Source of the DNA: Patescibacteria group bacterium
Lineage (GTDB): Bacteria; Patescibacteriota; Minisyncoccia; Phycocordibacterales; JANLHH01
DNA: 38,910 bases
Direction of reading: 5' to 3'
NCBI GenBank assembly: GCA_038063375.1
Contig: JBBTVG010000011.1
Span: forward strand, 1 to 38,910
Of this stretch, positions 2,260 to 34,749 are shown in pieces (the first letter of the stretch is position 1; each line of letters opens with the position of its first letter). The translations under genes and the position numbers were made by a program. The notes under the pieces are model-generated. The model worked only from the letters and a program-made list of their open reading frames with translations, was not told the DNA's origin and ran no database searches.

Positions 2260-4416
2260 ATGCATCCGGATTCTCTGCTGGAAAAAACGTTCCGCCTCAA
2301 CCCACCCCACAAGCAGGCGCTTGGAAAATTGGGGCTTAAAAGCGTACACGACCTTCTCTATTACTTCCCCGCGCGATACAACACTATCTCCGAGATCAAG
2401 AAAATTGCGGGGCTTTGTAGTGGTGACACGGCGGTCATTTACGGAAGAGTGCTGTCCGCCAAAACGAGCAGGGCTTTTAAAAAAAAGATCCCTATCGGCG
2501 AAGTCGTGGTGGAAGATGACACCGGCAAAATAAAAGCGACATGGTTTCATCAGGCGTATGCCGCAAAGATGGTGAAAAAAGGCGACCTGGTAAAACTTGC
2601 CGGCCGTGTCACCGCGAAAAAAAATGGCGAACTCTATCTCGCCAATCCCGAGTTTGAACGCACGGGAGAACTCCCCATTGATATCGGCGACTCGCTCTTC
2701 GCGGGAAAGATGCTTGAATCATTCGCGTATGCCATCTATCCGGAGTCTCGCGGCGTAACGTCGCGATGGCTCTATCACGCAATCCAAAAAATACTTGCAA
2801 GTGGTGCGTTGGACGAACTGAAGGACCCGATCCCCGAGCACATACTGAAAAAATATCATCTTCCGGGTCTCAAGACTTCTTTGATATGGATACATTCACC
2901 AAAAAAAGATGCCGACGCGCAAGCGGCGCGCAAGCGTTTTGCGTTTGAAGAAATATTTTTCATTCAGTTGGAACGTCAGCGCGCGCGGCATGCCTATAAA
3001 CAAAACCCGTCGTTTAAGGTAGAAACCTCGCAAGACTTGGTGGCGCGATTTATAGGGCGTTTCTCTTTTGATCCAACAGCGGCACAGAAGCGCGCCATAG
3101 AGGACATCTTAAGCGACATGAAAAAAGATTCGCCGATGTCGCGACTCCTTGAAGGAGATGTCGGTTCGGGGAAAACCGCCGTCGCGGCGACCACCGCCTA
3201 TGCCGCGCTTACCACGCGCCCGCACGGACAAGATTTTGGAAATCTCCAAGTTGCCTACATGGCGCCGACAGAAATACTTGCCGAACAGCATTTCCAATCG
3301 TTCATTGGATACTTCAAGCACCTCCCCATCAACATCGGGCTCATTACGGGGAGTGGCTGTAAAAAATTCCCCTCAAAGGTGGACCCCACAGGGACAACCG
3401 CCATTTCGCGCGCGCAACTGTTGAAGTGGGCGGCGAATGGCGAGATCGCTATTTTGATTGGCACCCATTCACTGATCCAAAAAACGGTAAAATTTAAAGA
3501 ACTGGCATACGTCATTATTGATGAACAGCACCGCTTCGGCACGATGCAACGAGGAACATTGGTGCGCAAAGACCACCGCGCGCCGCATCTGCTTAGCATG
3601 ACCGCCACCCCCATCCCGCGAACACTCGCGCTCACCATCTACGGCGACCTTGATTTGACTCTTCTTGATGAAATGCCGAAGGGACGGAAGGAGGTACTCA
3701 CAGAGATTGTTGTGCCCGGCAAACGCGAGGAGGTCTACGAAAAAGTGAGGCAGGAATTAAGAGACGGCAGACAAGCGTATGTTATCTGTCCGCGCATTGA
3801 TGAAGCCGACCCCGATAAAGCATCGGCCCTGCGGGTGAAGTCCGTCAAAGAGGAAGCGGCGCGACTGAAGAAAAATATTTTTCCCGAATATGAGATTGAT
3901 GTTTTACACGGGAAGCTCCTGCCAAAAGAAAAAGAAGAGGTCATGAGACGATTCGCAAACCATGAAACGGATATCTTGGTGGCGACCTCTGTCGTTGAAG
4001 TCGGCGTGAATGTGCAAAACGCCACCGTCATCATCATTGAAGGCGCGGAGCGTTTCGGTTTAGCACAGCTCCATCAATTGCGCGGGCGCGTGCTTCGCAG
4101 TACGCACCAGGCATATTGCTACTGCTTTGCCGACAGCAAGACCAAGCAATCATTAGACCGGCTCAAAGCGCTCAAGACGGCAAAGAACGGATTTGAACTC
4201 TCCGAGTTGGATCTCTCTCTCCGAGGAACGGGGGCGCTCTCTGGCACCAAGCAGTGGGGCATCTCCGACCTCGGCATGGAAGCCATTAAGAACATCAAGA
4301 TGGTGGAAGCCGCTCGCACGGAAGCACTCGCTCTTTTAGAGAGCGACCCCAAGCTCGCGGCACATCCGCTCCTCTCTCTGCGCCTTGCCTCGCAAACCGA
4401 TATTCATTTTGAGTAA
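2260..4416 (+). CDS. recG: ATP-dependent DNA helicase RecG
   Basis: The 718-residue product matches RecG in length and domain order. A wedge/OB domain at about 50-150 has the LLYYFPARY motif. The superfamily 2 helicase core has Walker A GDVGSGKT (299-306), Walker B DEQH (421-424), motif III MTATPIPRT, and a C-terminal half with TSVVEVGVNV and HQLRGRV (motifs V and VI). The RecG-specific TRG-like region follows. RecG remodels stalled replication forks and Holliday junctions. The gene stands alone between two terminator or RNA regions. Its start codon follows a -10 box by 7 bases, so it may be translated leaderless. Confidence 0.97.
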   Translation: MHPDSLLEKTFRLNPPHKQALGKLGLKSVHDLLYYFPARYNTISEIKKIAGLCSGDTAVIYGRVLSAKTSRAFKKKIPIGEVVVEDDTGKIKATWFHQAYAAKMVKKGDLVKLAGRVTAKKNGELYLANPEFERTGELPIDIGDSLFAGKMLESFAYAIYPESRGVTSRWLYHAIQKILASGALDELKDPIPEHILKKYHLPGLKTSLIWIHSPKKDADAQAARKRFAFEEIFFIQLERQRARHAYKQNPSFKVETSQDLVARFIGRFSFDPTAAQKRAIEDILSDMKKDSPMSRLLEGDVGSGKTAVAATTAYAALTTRPHGQDFGNLQVAYMAPTEILAEQHFQSFIGYFKHLPINIGLITGSGCKKFPSKVDPTGTTAISRAQLLKWAANGEIAILIGTHSLIQKTVKFKELAYVIIDEQHRFGTMQRGTLVRKDHRAPHLLSMTATPIPRTLALTIYGDLDLTLLDEMPKGRKEVLTEIVVPGKREEVYEKVRQELRDGRQAYVICPRIDEADPDKASALRVKSVKEEAARLKKNIFPEYEIDVLHGKLLPKEKEEVMRRFANHETDILVATSVVEVGVNVQNATVIIIEGAERFGLAQLHQLRGRVLRSTHQAYCYCFADSKTKQSLDRLKALKTAKNGFELSELDLSLRGTGALSGTKQWGISDLGMEAIKNIKMVEAARTEALALLESDPKLAAHPLLSLRLASQTDIHFE

Positions 4417-4436: not shown

Positions 4437-4698
4437 TGCGCCCTAAAGGCACTCGAAGCCTTTCACCGCGGAGATATATCTTTCCGATATAAAATGATCA
4501 TTCAGACGAAATGAAAATATGAATTTAAAATAAGCCCTGTGTCCGCCCTCCAGGACTCGAACCTGGGACCGCGGAGATATAAGCTCCGTGCTCTAACCAA
4601 CTGAGCTAAGGGCGGACACAACTCTTATTATTCATATTTTCAATCGTCTTCACTCCATTTTATAAGCTCCGTGCTCTAACCAACTGAGCTATGGGCGC
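4437..4698 (-). other. Outer tRNA-Ile(UAU)-like gene interrupted in the anticodon loop by a hairpin carrying a second tRNA
   Basis: The two ends of this segment are the two halves of a tRNA. The 5' half (4698 to about 4660) has acceptor GCGCCCA, a normal D arm and the 5' anticodon stem CGGAG with CTTATA of the loop. The 3' half (about 4478 to 4437) has CTCCG, a T arm with loop TTCGAGT, and acceptor AGGGCGC plus A. Position 7/66 is an A-A mismatch (or one A is bulged), so the outer copy may be decayed. Between the halves, arms at about 4616-4667 and 4484-4541 are complementary in long blocks and hold the complete inner tRNA at their tip. No CCA is encoded. Total length is 262 bases. Confidence 0.6.
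4542..4615 (-). tRNA. tRNA-Ile, anticodon UAU
   Basis: All parts are present: acceptor CCGCCCT/AGGGCGG, D arm GCTC...GAGC, anticodon stem CGGAG/CTCCG with loop CTTATAT (anticodon UAU, + strand 4579-4581), 5-base variable loop, T arm CCAGG-TTCGAGT-CCTGG, and discriminator A. CCA is not encoded. The anticodon reads AUA directly; most bacteria instead use a CAU tRNA modified to lysidine by TilS. The acceptor stem is extended by five more pairs (TGTGT/ACACA), which continue into the enclosing hairpin. It shares 31 identical bases with the outer tRNA-like 5' half from the D arm through the anticodon. Confidence 0.9.
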
Positions 4699-4718
4699 AA
4701 AAACGTTTGCACTACTAG

Positions 4719-4747
4719 ATAGTAATCGGTAACGAGGCGAATGTAAA
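4719..4747 (-). promoter_or_regulatory. Promoter of the nested tRNA locus
   Basis: Minus strand: TTTACA (4742-4747), 17-base spacer, TACTAT (4719-4724). The start site is predicted near 4712, about 13 bases before the outer tRNA 5' end, so outer half, hairpin, inner tRNA and outer 3' half would be one transcript. Confidence 0.65.
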
Positions 4748-10128: not shown

Positions 10129-11409
10129 ATGAAAACAATCACCCCAACATACGACCTTATCGTCATCGGCGGAGGGCCTTCCGGCATGATGGCGGCGGGA
10201 CGCGCGGCAGAACTTGGCGCGCGCGTGCTTTTGCTGGAAAAAAACAGGCACCTGGGCGAAAAGCTGAAAATAACCGGCGGCGGCCGGTGCAACATCACCA
10301 ACGCGGAGTTCAATGTGAGGACGTTCCTTGAGAGTTTTCCGCAGTCCAAAGAATTCCTCTTCTCCCCTTTCTCAAAATTCTCCACAAAAGATACGTTCAC
10401 ATTCTTTGAAGGAAAAGGGTTGCCCCTTATCATTGAGGCACGAAAAAGAGCGTTCCCCGCGTCCCAAAAAGCTTTTGATGTCTTTCTTGTTATGGAAAAG
10501 TACATACGGACGCATCGGGTGGAAGTGGAAAAAAACGCCCGAGTTTCTTCTCTCAAAAAGAAAGACGGAAAAATTGTTTCGGTGAAGCTCTCCAGCGGGA
10601 AAGAATACTCCGCTCATTATTTTGCGCTCGCGACGGGTGGCACAGCCGCTCCGGAGACCGGCTCCACGGGCGATGGTTTCAAAATGCTCTCAAAATTGGG
10701 ACACACCATTGCCAAGCCGAATCCGAACATTGTCCCTCTGAAAACAAGCGCGAAATGGGTCCACGGTCTCTCCGGCACGACGCTCTCTTTCATGACCATT
10801 CGCTTCAAACAAAACGACAAAGCCAAGATCAAGAAAACCGGAAAAGTCCTCTTCACGCATTTTGGCATCTCCGGACCATTGATACTCAATTCTTCCTATG
10901 AGGTCAGAGGGCTGCTTAAGGAAGGCCCGGTGGAAGCTTCTATTGACCTGTTTCCCGACACGGAGGAAAACGATCTTGACCGCAGGATACGCAATCTTTT
11001 TGAGAAGAACAAAAATAAAAAGTTAAAGAATGTCTTTTCGGAGCTTCTGCCGAAAGCTTTGGCGGAGGCGATCGTGGACCTCCCGGAACTGAAGCTTGCG
11101 CAAAAAACGATCAACTCCATCACCAAAGAGGAGCGGAAAAAACTGGTCAAAAAACTGAAAGACCTCTCATTTCCCATTACCGGCACATTGGGTTTTGACA
11201 AGGCGATCATTGCTGATGGCGGTGTGATATTGGAGGAAGTGAACTTTAAAAACATGACTTCAAAGCTCTATACCAATCTCTATTTGCTCGGGGACACCTT
11301 GAGTATCAACCGCCCTTCCGGCGGGTTCTCCCTGCAGATGTGCTGGACGACCGGCTTTGTCGCAGGCACGGACGTGGGAGAAAAAGTGGCCGCTCCGTCA
11401 CAGGGTTGA
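10129..11409 (+). CDS. BaiN/YhiN (HI0933-type) FAD-dependent oxidoreductase
   Basis: The 426-residue flavoprotein begins with a Rossmann dinucleotide fold (DLIVIGGGPSGMMAAG, glycines 14-19) and has the family hallmark EKLKITGGGRCNITNAE soon after. Later motifs are ALATGGTAAPETGSTGDGF and FTHFGISGPLIL, and the C-terminus NRPSGGFSLQMCWTTGFVAG closes the FAD site. The HI0933/YhiN family is annotated as NAD(P)/FAD oxidoreductase; its member BaiN acts on bile acid intermediates, but the substrate here is unknown. The TGA stop codon overlaps the TTGA flank of a MITE-like element that begins at 11410, so the element landed exactly at the end of the gene. Confidence 0.93.
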   Translation: MKTITPTYDLIVIGGGPSGMMAAGRAAELGARVLLLEKNRHLGEKLKITGGGRCNITNAEFNVRTFLESFPQSKEFLFSPFSKFSTKDTFTFFEGKGLPLIIEARKRAFPASQKAFDVFLVMEKYIRTHRVEVEKNARVSSLKKKDGKIVSVKLSSGKEYSAHYFALATGGTAAPETGSTGDGFKMLSKLGHTIAKPNPNIVPLKTSAKWVHGLSGTTLSFMTIRFKQNDKAKIKKTGKVLFTHFGISGPLILNSSYEVRGLLKEGPVEASIDLFPDTEENDLDRRIRNLFEKNKNKKLKNVFSELLPKALAEAIVDLPELKLAQKTINSITKEERKKLVKKLKDLSFPITGTLGFDKAIIADGGVILEEVNFKNMTSKLYTNLYLLGDTLSINRPSGGFSLQMCWTTGFVAGTDVGEKVAAPSQG

Positions 11410-11512
11410 CCGAGCACCACTTTTACCTTTGAAACAAAGGAGTTTTTGGCGAATAATGTAATCATTATTTTTGAAGATATCCAATAGAGAAGTTAGTAAA
11501 AGTGGTGCTCGG
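11410..11512 (+). mobile_element. 103-bp MITE-like element, copy A
   Basis: Inverted ends CCGAGCACCACTTTTAC at both sides, flanked by TTGA (11406-11409 and 11513-11516). The internal part matches copies B and C in the same orientation. The left flank overlaps the stop codon of the flavoprotein gene, and infC starts 65 bases after the right end. Confidence 0.85.
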
Positions 11513-11576
11513 TTGACTTCTTGCGCCAGAGCAGATAGAATGGTGCAACTTGCTGGGAGGCAGGTTTTACATACCC

Positions 11577-16103: not shown

Positions 16104-16197
16104 ATTATTGCCTAGCGAGTGAGTGAAGTGAAAAAGTTTCTCTTTATTCACTTCCGAACGAGCGACGGCAACAAAGGGTTTAACGCCCTTTATTATA
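16104..16197 (-). repeat. Structured repeat P1 (inverted partner of P2)
   Basis: Read on the minus strand: AAAGGGCGTTAAACCCTTT hairpin, then an outer stem TTGCC/GGCAA that encloses GTCGCTCGTTCG on one side, an inner stem GAAGTGAA/TTCACTTC, and CACTCGCTA on the other. It is a near-complete inverted copy of P2 at 16962-17057, on the other side of ndk. It lies directly upstream of the YjdF-like gene. Confidence 0.8.
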
Positions 16198-16961: not shown

Positions 16962-17057
16962 ATAAATAAAGGGTATTAAACCCTTTGTTGCCGTCGCTCG
17001 TTCGGGAGAGAAAAAGAAGATACTTTTTCTCTCCGCTCACTCGCTAGGCAATAATTG
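16962..17057 (+). repeat. Structured repeat P2, abutting the ndk start codon
   Basis: Hairpin AAAGGGT/ACCCTTT, then outer stem TTGCC/GGCAA, inner stem GAGAGAAAAAG/CTTTTTCTCTC, and the flanking single strands GTCGCTCGTTCGG and CGCTCACTCGCTA. The outer stem equals that of P1 but the inner stem differs and still pairs. In the ndk mRNA it would be the antisense orientation and would reach the ATG without a gap. Confidence 0.8.
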
Positions 17058-17100: not shown

Positions 17101-17116
17101 TGGACCGACAAATCAA

Positions 17117-17219
17117 CCGAGCACCACTTTTACTTTTGAAACAAAGGTGTTTTTGGCGAATAATGCAATCATTGTTTTTGAAGATGTCCAATAGAGAAGT
17201 TAGTAAAAGTGGTGCTCGG
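17117..17219 (+). mobile_element. 103-bp MITE-like element, copy B
   Basis: Same 17-bp inverted ends as copy A, flanked by TCAA at 17113-17116 and 17220-17223. The internal sequence differs from copy A at only a few positions. It lies 25 bases past the stop codon of the TraG-like gene. Confidence 0.85.
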
Positions 17220-17244
17220 TCAACTATGTGTCATGCGTTTGTCT

Positions 17245-25490: not shown

Positions 25491-25525
25491 GGATTACATA
25501 CTATCAGACTATTGTGTATTGTCAA

Positions 25526-25627
25526 CCGAGCACCACTTTTACCATTGAAACAAAGTGATTTTTGGCCTATAGCGCATCATTGTTTCTGTAGATACTCAAT
25601 GGAGAAATTGGTAAAAGCGGTGCTCGG
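25526..25627 (+). mobile_element. 102-bp MITE-like element, copy C
   Basis: Left end CCGAGCACCACTTTTAC, right end with one change in the inverted copy. The left flank is TCAA (25522-25525); the right flank is TTTA, so this duplication has decayed. It is the most divergent copy. The insertion lies five bases after the rplE stop codon, inside the spc gene order. Confidence 0.82.
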
Positions 25628-25632
25628 TTTAA

Positions 25633-34187: not shown

Positions 34188-34279
34188 AAATAAAGGGTAT
34201 TAAACCCTTTGTTTCGTCTTCGCTCGGACGAAATGTAAAATCAGAATTTTCCATTTCGCTCCTCGCTAGCCGAAATAAA
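34188..34279 (+). repeat. Structured repeat P3, upstream of tuf
   Basis: Hairpin AAAGGGT/ACCCTTT as in P2, then outer stem TTTCG/CGAAA and inner stem CGAAAT-gt-AAAAT/ATTTT-cc-ATTTCG, with TCTTCGCTCGGA and CTCCTCGCTAGC between the stems. Both stems differ in sequence from P1 and P2 but stay paired. It lies 81 bases before the tuf ATG. Confidence 0.75.
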
Positions 34280-34330: not shown

Positions 34331-34446
34331 AATAAAGGGCAAAAAAAGTACACCCTTTGTTTCAACGTCACTCGGACGCCGTATAAAACCTGCCTTGCCG
34401 GTAGGCAGGTCAGAGTTTTCCACGCGCTCCTCGTTTGTTGAAATAA
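34331..34446 (+). repeat. Structured repeat P4 with a palindrome inserted at its tip
   Basis: Same plan as P3: AAAGGG ... ACCCTTT hairpin (longer loop), outer stem TTTCAAC/GTTGAAA, inner stem CGTATAAAAC/GTTTTCCACG, and CACTCGGA and CTCCTCG between the stems. The tip of the inner stem holds the CCTGCC...GGCAGG palindrome at 34389-34409. Confidence 0.7.
34389..34409. repeat. REP-like palindrome inside P4
   Basis: CCTGCC (34389-34394) and GGCAGG (34404-34409) around TTGCCGGTA. It has replaced the 4-base loop that P3 shows at this place. Confidence 0.7.
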
Positions 34447-34500
34447 AAAACAACGCGAAATGCGGTGTACCTATACTAACAAATCGTAAAAAGAAGTCAA

Positions 34501-34603
34501 CCGAGCACTACTTTTACTAACTTCTCCATTGGGTATCTGTGGAAACAATAATTACATTATGCACCAAAAACCCCTTTGTTTCAATAGTAAAAGTGGTGCT
34601 CGG
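34501..34603 (-). mobile_element. 103-bp MITE-like element, copy D (inverted orientation)
   Basis: 17-bp inverted ends (one change in the left end), flanked by TCAA at 34497-34500 and 34604-34607. Its internal sequence is the reverse complement of copies A-C. The remaining bases to 34749 hold two GGGGTGACA motifs and nothing else I can name. Confidence 0.85.
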
Positions 34604-34749
34604 TCAACCCGGCGTACAGTTAACCTTATGGGGTGACAGTTTAGATGGATTGGGGTGACAAAGGGTAACCGTCCTTAAAACACGATATTCTGGCAAACAA
34701 AAATCAGCAATTGGCGTATTCCCCAAAGTCTAGCAGGATAAAGAGTTTT

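Follow-up and report, generated by a model that had tools for sequence, protein, structure and literature searches.

How can a complete tRNA gene come to lie inside the anticodon loop of another tRNA gene of the same kind? The question is raised by a 38,910 nt stretch of a Patescibacteria genome (hereafter the window), in which an entire tRNA-Ile(UAU), recognized by ARAGORN and by Rfam at 68.1 bits, lies within a hairpin that splits a second tRNA-Ile(UAU) (Table 1). The split falls between positions 36 and 37 of the outer gene, and the insert is 186 nt long. When the two outer halves were joined by a script, ARAGORN called the product as tRNA-Ile(UAU), confirming the nesting reported in the preliminary description of this DNA. 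The 5' and 3' outer halves gave match scores of 31 and 20, whereas sequence farther away in the same locus scored 8 and 11.

The thermodynamic fold that had been proposed there, of positions 4437-4711, gave -111.4 kcal/mol (z -8.5) as RNA, a value equalled by 0 of 200 shuffles. As single-stranded DNA, the insert adopts a long hairpin that carries the inner cloverleaf at its apex (z -10.9). The locus does, then, fold as a tRNA with a giant arm topped by another tRNA. The promoter, said to have good -35 and -10 boxes just before the outer 5' end, fared less well: the candidate TTTACA-17-TACTAT is a single 9/12 match, where 1.3 are expected by chance. As for the defects noted in the outer copy, the A-A mismatch at 7/66 and the T arm with six pairs are real, but in G001, a genome of the same genus, the outer T arm is canonical, with T at position 66. 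G001 retains the inner 3' part, the right arm and the outer 3' half at 93% identity to the window locus; its contig begins within the palindrome, with the 5' half outside view.

Table 1. Parts of the nested locus, its surroundings and candidate element copies in the window
Feature	Position	Strand	Remarks
Outer tRNA-Ile(UAU), 5' half	4662-4698	-	positions 1-36, G1 to U36
Outer tRNA-Ile(UAU), 3' half	4437-4475	-	positions 37-73, A37 to discriminator
Hairpin 1, left arm	4616-4661	-	stem 1 extends exon TTATA; internal loop GAGTGAA (4649-4655); then stem 2
Inner tRNA-Ile(UAU), complete	4541-4615	-	apical loop of hairpin 1; ARAGORN and Rfam
Hairpin 1, right arm	4487-4540	-	stem 2'; internal loop TGAATGAT (4497-4504); stem 1' CATTTTATAT (4487-4496)
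Hairpin 2 (ATATCGGAAAGATAT) and element right end	4476-4490	-	ends in ATAT; left ATAT common to stem 1'
Weak promoter-like site TTTACA-17-TACTAT	4719-4747	-	upstream of outer half; chance level
recG, convergent neighbour	2260-4416	+	marks conserved tRNA-Ile(UAU) gene position
Dispersed hairpin 1 copy, no tRNA	34212-34275	-	E 0.00014
Likely dispersed element copy, no tRNA	16973-17057	-	E 0.035
Weaker candidate hairpin 1 copy	16108-16171	+	core AGCGAG / CGAGCGA; E 0.12
Weaker candidate hairpin 1 copy	34360-34443	-	conserved core; E 0.15

We searched related genomes for the same nesting, as had also been proposed, and found it at about 35 loci; by the tool's labels these represent at least 19 families of this Patescibacteria order, and three-level dolls are among them. 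The order-level search, together with fetched loci, yielded 81 loci with a complete tRNA-Ile(UAU), 30 of which passed the cut for matching halves. One of these proved to be a false nest (L136) and another keeps the 5' half only (L017), leaving 28 with both junctions readable; the total of about 35 also takes in L007, L026, L105, L217 and L233. That total is not a prevalence, because the 81-locus sample favours close matches. Spacing is regular across 28 or more of the nested tRNA-Ile(UAU) loci among the 81 examined. The position of the recG-side tRNA-Ile(UAU) locus is conserved, nested and un-nested species occur within one genus, and the same nesting is also found in tRNA-Ile(GAU).

A pattern scan for one nested geometry across 84,980 species of bacteria returned 56 stretches. 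Among the matches listed, 10 were judged by eye to be nested, all of them in Patescibacteria (Nomurabacteria and Yonathbacteria, for example); the others, again by eye, were ordinary tRNA surroundings or chance, L066 having been checked separately. No nested case was seen by eye when viral contigs were scanned with the same pattern. The intron mode of ARAGORN left the outer copies unreported as long as the inner copy was present. The preliminary description had known of no described case, and our search of the open-access literature likewise found no description of a nested tRNA arrangement. The arrangement may be undescribed, with parts that resemble known kinds.

Because the sequence of the tRNA is known, the empty site is known too. 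The element enters at an identical bond in all cases, between positions 36 and 37 of tRNA-Ile(UAU) (CTTAT^A). The left junction reads TTAT in 16 of the 28 loci and TTAC in 4 (20 of 28 together), part of this boundary motif having already been in the search model; the right end is ATAT in 26 of 28, with no target duplication. The element thus lies 3' of (C/T)TAT and ends in ATAT, and the empty site given by the tRNA exons reveals a fixed left tetranucleotide with no target-site duplication. Where units stand in tandem they meet at the right end, in a site of this same kind: L017 has three copies, and in L015, L063 and L105 a tRNA-bearing unit comes after an empty one. In L217 (genome G034) a first unit is followed by a second with an identical hairpin 1, and the inner tRNA equals the outer. 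In the tRNA-Ile(GAU) of G231 (L218) the element lies antisense, on the strand where the anticodon loop reads TTAT, and we read the tRNA-Ile(GAU) of G085 (L173) as holding an antisense element too. A DNA element is the simplest explanation, since it works on either strand of the tRNA gene. At the right end of contig C1 of G000 (L160/L002), a tRNA-Ile(GAU) has three successive 3' halves, and the contig breaks within the innermost tRNA.

Stripped of its tRNA, the element is about 70-80 nt long and consists of hairpin 1 and a small hairpin 2 at the right end. In hairpin 1 a variable stem, paired at its foot with the exon TTAT, is followed by an internal loop (N-A-R-Y-G-A / G-A-R-Y-G) and a second stem; hairpin 2 is ATAT-loop-ATAT. 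The inner tRNA occupies the apical loop of hairpin 1 in the window, L013, L014, L036, L089, L094 and others, and the loop of hairpin 2 in L022, L023, L038, L115 and L119. In the hairpin 1 class the arms measure about 26-34 nt on the left and 41-50 nt on the right (46 and 65 nt in the window), and some motifs of the inner arms (TTGAAAATATG.GTCC) are seen again from family to family.

In a MAFFT alignment of 27 copies, from some rows of which the tRNA had been removed by hand, all 11 of 11 consensus pairs were changed on both sides. In 70 copies fitted to a covariance model, an alignment that leans towards the model, 95% of the cells of the core hairpin were paired. Covariation there was 0.56, against 0.17 (sd 0.012) in shuffled alignments, 0 of 500 of which reached it, and 0.04-0.09 when the alignment was slid. 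The tandem G-A positions are near-invariant (69-70 of 70 copies). Imperfect hairpins thus stand at both ends of the element: hairpin 1 is strongly supported by covariation, and what speaks for the short hairpin 2 is its near-invariant ATAT pair. The covariation between arms that the preliminary description had proposed to look for is present. It had also reasoned that unconserved arm pairing in relatives would make the outer halves a random duplicate, and the result ran the opposite way. Folded alone as DNA, the 75-nt unit of L217 is not unusually stable (z -0.97).

The element is not confined to tRNA-Ile. Within the window itself there is one further clear copy, besides as many as three weaker ones. 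With the covariance model at E 0.05 we counted 9 copies in G043, 11 in G114, 6 in G283 and 5 each in G055 and G000. At E 0.001 the element is present in 73 of the 297 genomes of the order, with a maximum of 16 copies per genome; a phylum-wide sample gave a match in 7 of 287 genomes, four of the seven belonging to this order. Most of the 31 copies fetched lie outside tRNA-Ile and they are mostly intergenic. Several stand 3' of the T-runs of terminator-like hairpins, an association judged by eye, and some copies directly adjoin tRNA-Gly, -Trp, -Ala or -Thr at the 5' end, on the opposite strand. In four such cases (L172, L175, L181, L191), stem 1 uses the tRNA end and holds an inverted copy of it. 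Comparison of G001 with G000 at a dispersed copy showed a complex indel and no clean empty-site pair.

Other repeats share these genomes. A repeat of about 105 bp occurs in the window at 25525-25629, 11406-11517, 34496-34607 and 17116-17220, and is also found in the congener G001 (L011). In the window's genome, a copy of the tRNA 3' end lies 40-180 nt downstream of many tRNA genes (L144, L145, L146, L149, L155, L159), with a partly inverted copy and hairpins in between. These 3'-end repeats look like a second family of small tRNA-targeting elements.

Which of the two tRNAs is the older? Genus g85 allows a comparison between a nested genome, G269, and an un-nested one, G217. What lies upstream of the tRNA in G217, namely the end of recG and the promoter region, aligns with the flank of the outer half at a score of 10.5 and with the inner flank at -20.5. 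Because the un-nested flank matches the outer and not the inner one, the older gene in this genus is the one represented by the outer halves. Decay affects the outer copies; the inner ones stay intact. The outer copies span a range from identical to the inner (L217) and intact (L094, L022), through changed in the anticodon (L024, L119, L198, L208, all TTAC), to broken, in some cases by other palindromic inserts (L015, L063); L029 has no recognisable outer 5' half and L017 no 3' half. This range reads as a probable succession of insertion, decay and loss. Where the outer anticodon has gone from TTAT to TTAC, a matching change in the hairpin is seen at least in L024 and L119. The decayed outers of L015, L023, L063 and L013 carry short palindromes (of CGAATCAGCTGATTCG type) in their D and T arms.

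In 11 of the 16 loci with alignable outers, the inner tRNA is closest to its own outer (identity 0.88 within loci versus 0.78 between; permutation p 5e-5), a likeness to which genome relatedness contributes because the 16 loci are not phylogenetically independent. In L135, L122 and L131 the inner is closer to others than to its own outer. Since the inner is usually most like its own outer, local copying likely supplied the inner tRNA in most loci, with import in some. In L036, L198 and L199 the acceptor stems of inner and outer differ in several pairs, all still paired, and the D and anticodon arms are nearly identical, which suggests replacement of the whole stem.

The consequences of such an insertion depend on whether the tRNA is dispensable. 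In the tRNA-bearing regions of G000, ARAGORN found a single UAU tRNA besides two CAU tRNAs, the latter taken from their appearance to be initiator and elongator Met; TilS was not found in this genome, which is 98.7% complete. The inner copy is the only intact tRNA-Ile(UAU) found in the window's genome. Because the UAU tRNA is single-copy, both CAU tRNAs appear to be Met and no TilS was found, AUA is probably read by no other tRNA, and the UAU tRNA is probably essential. A strict pattern for a tRNA-Ile(UAU) split by an empty element of 58-88 nt detected none in 297 genomes; the search gave 20 matches in 18 genomes, and those among the matches listed were all nested loci. With a single-copy tRNA and no TilS found, we infer that only inserts with a whole tRNA survive and that empty insertions die.

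Taken together, these data lead us to regard the insert as a likely member of a family of small DNA elements, built of two hairpins, that with a tRNA as cargo re-nests the host tRNA. Of the readings put forward in the preliminary description, a tRNA-bearing palindrome that had landed in its own homologue is the one that the dispersed family, the ancestral position of the outer gene and the fixed bond best support. Copying by replication slippage or template switching at palindromes, which would have placed the tRNA in its own loop with the arms as by-products and no mobile element involved, is an unlikely account of the whole. It would fit the closeness of inner to own outer, the stem changes that are compensated even in loci without the outer anticodon (L024, L119) and the abundance of inverted repeats around tRNAs in these genomes. 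Yet it does not predict one insertion bond and one ATAT end across some 19 families, and it is insufficient alone because the non-Watson-Crick core, which homogenising switches should erase, is conserved and because the same hairpin occurs without a tRNA at many unrelated sites. What stands of it is that local copying probably provided the tRNA.

That the insert is an RNA intron, spliced from the outer tRNA by a ribozyme or an enzyme with the inner tRNA as passenger and both tRNAs made, is improbable. The site beside the anticodon is that of tRNA introns, the exon pairs with the insert, the fold is conserved, and ARAGORN still calls the joined outer as tRNA-Ile(UAU) in 12 loci. Against it, the element lies antisense in tRNA-Ile(GAU), the splicing enzymes EndA (PF01974, 0 of 297 genomes) and RtcB (PF01139, 2 of 297) are essentially absent from the order, and outers have decayed: some are broken, and those of L198, L024, L119 and L036 have Val(UAC) or Gly(UCC) anticodons once joined. 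Moreover, with the pattern used no tRNA-Ile(UAU) containing the element only was found in the 297 genomes, most element copies are outside tRNAs, and Rfam models other than tRNA, the group I core included, were unmatched at the gathering score in the window and at E 1 in eight related loci, where further sub-threshold matches are probably chance. Self-splicing of the RNA at intact loci is conceivable. A single ancestral nesting, kept or lost since, would fit the conserved recG-side locus and the motifs recurring between families, but an inner tRNA identical to the outer in L217 and 99% identical in L094, the mixture of nested and un-nested species in one genus and the placement of the tRNA in either hairpin make so old a relic very improbable. 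An assembly artefact at palindromes can practically be dismissed: such sites do interrupt contigs in G000 and G001, but the same geometry recurs in dozens of separate assemblies, in some on contigs of hundreds of kilobases (L036, L194).

How might the DNA element work? Its single-stranded DNA would fold into two hairpins, the left one imperfect, beside a fixed tetranucleotide and insert, with no target duplication, 3' of (C/T)TAT, a sequence that tRNA-Ile(UAU) presents as its own anticodon (CTTAT^A, 36/37). Mobility would be at the DNA level, as for a non-autonomous IS200/IS605 or REP element; given the pair of hairpins, the tetranucleotide and the absence of target duplication, a single-strand-DNA pathway of this type is the most likely by analogy. 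Insertion would break the essential single-copy tRNA, and the cell would survive only if the hairpin loop brought a whole tRNA-Ile. The inner copy would become the working gene, freed presumably by ordinary end processing; the outer halves could decay freely, and the inner copy would offer a fresh target for repeated nesting.

We tentatively extend this, with somewhat less than even confidence, to a self-nesting tRNA treadmill, in which a mobile single-stranded DNA hairpin element has an essential tRNA as both cargo and target. If true, each insertion swaps the working gene for a copy inside the old one, so that the gene lineage moves inward and an essential gene is serially replaced from within its own anticodon. 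A parasitic element could then hit an essential single-copy target without host death, and the outer copies would be fossils, a readable record of successive events. On the practical side, the hairpin family defined here is annotated by no tool that we used, and tRNA callers give the inner gene only, which is a warning for annotation. The palindromic tRNA loci also suggest a possible reason for the fragmented assemblies of these bacteria.

Several known systems share parts of this arrangement. Integrative elements and phages restore one end of the tRNA that they enter by recombination at its 3' half. The element resembles them in its tRNA target and in restoring function by carried sequence, but it places a whole second tRNA inside the split first and has no integrase gene, for which 186 nt is too short. 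Rickettsia-type palindromic elements, which are likewise small and palindromic and enter genes, including those for RNA, are set apart by their description; neither tRNA cargo nor a single insertion bond is a known feature of theirs. Group I introns in bacterial tRNA anticodon loops and archaeal BHB introns also enter the anticodon loop (PMC4090602), whereas the element is about 75 nt without its tRNA, lies antisense in another tRNA, has no Rfam intron match and resides in genomes in which EndA and RtcB are essentially absent.

The closest comparison is with the ends of IS200/IS605 elements and with REP/REPIN sequences and their TnpA-REP (RAYT), which share small imperfect DNA hairpins, a fixed flanking tetranucleotide, pairing of element with target, dispersal between genes and occasional tandem copies (PMC6006769). 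Of 24 genomes searched for Y1 transposase genes, 17 have them, among these the genome of the window; the covariance model detected no element copies beside Y1/HUH transposase genes at 30 Y1 loci. The guide tetranucleotide of IS200/IS605 lies just 5' of the hairpin foot (PMC6006769), whereas in our element the strand at the foot that pairs with the target belongs to the 3' side of hairpin 1, and the consensus of 70 copies has no GTAG/GTGG foot. Because of the missing GTAG foot, the 3'-side pairing and the lack of a Y1-adjacent copy, we liken the element to IS200/IS605 and REP and do not file it among them. What further distinguishes it from both is its conserved tandem G-A core and, in some copies, the whole tRNA that it holds.
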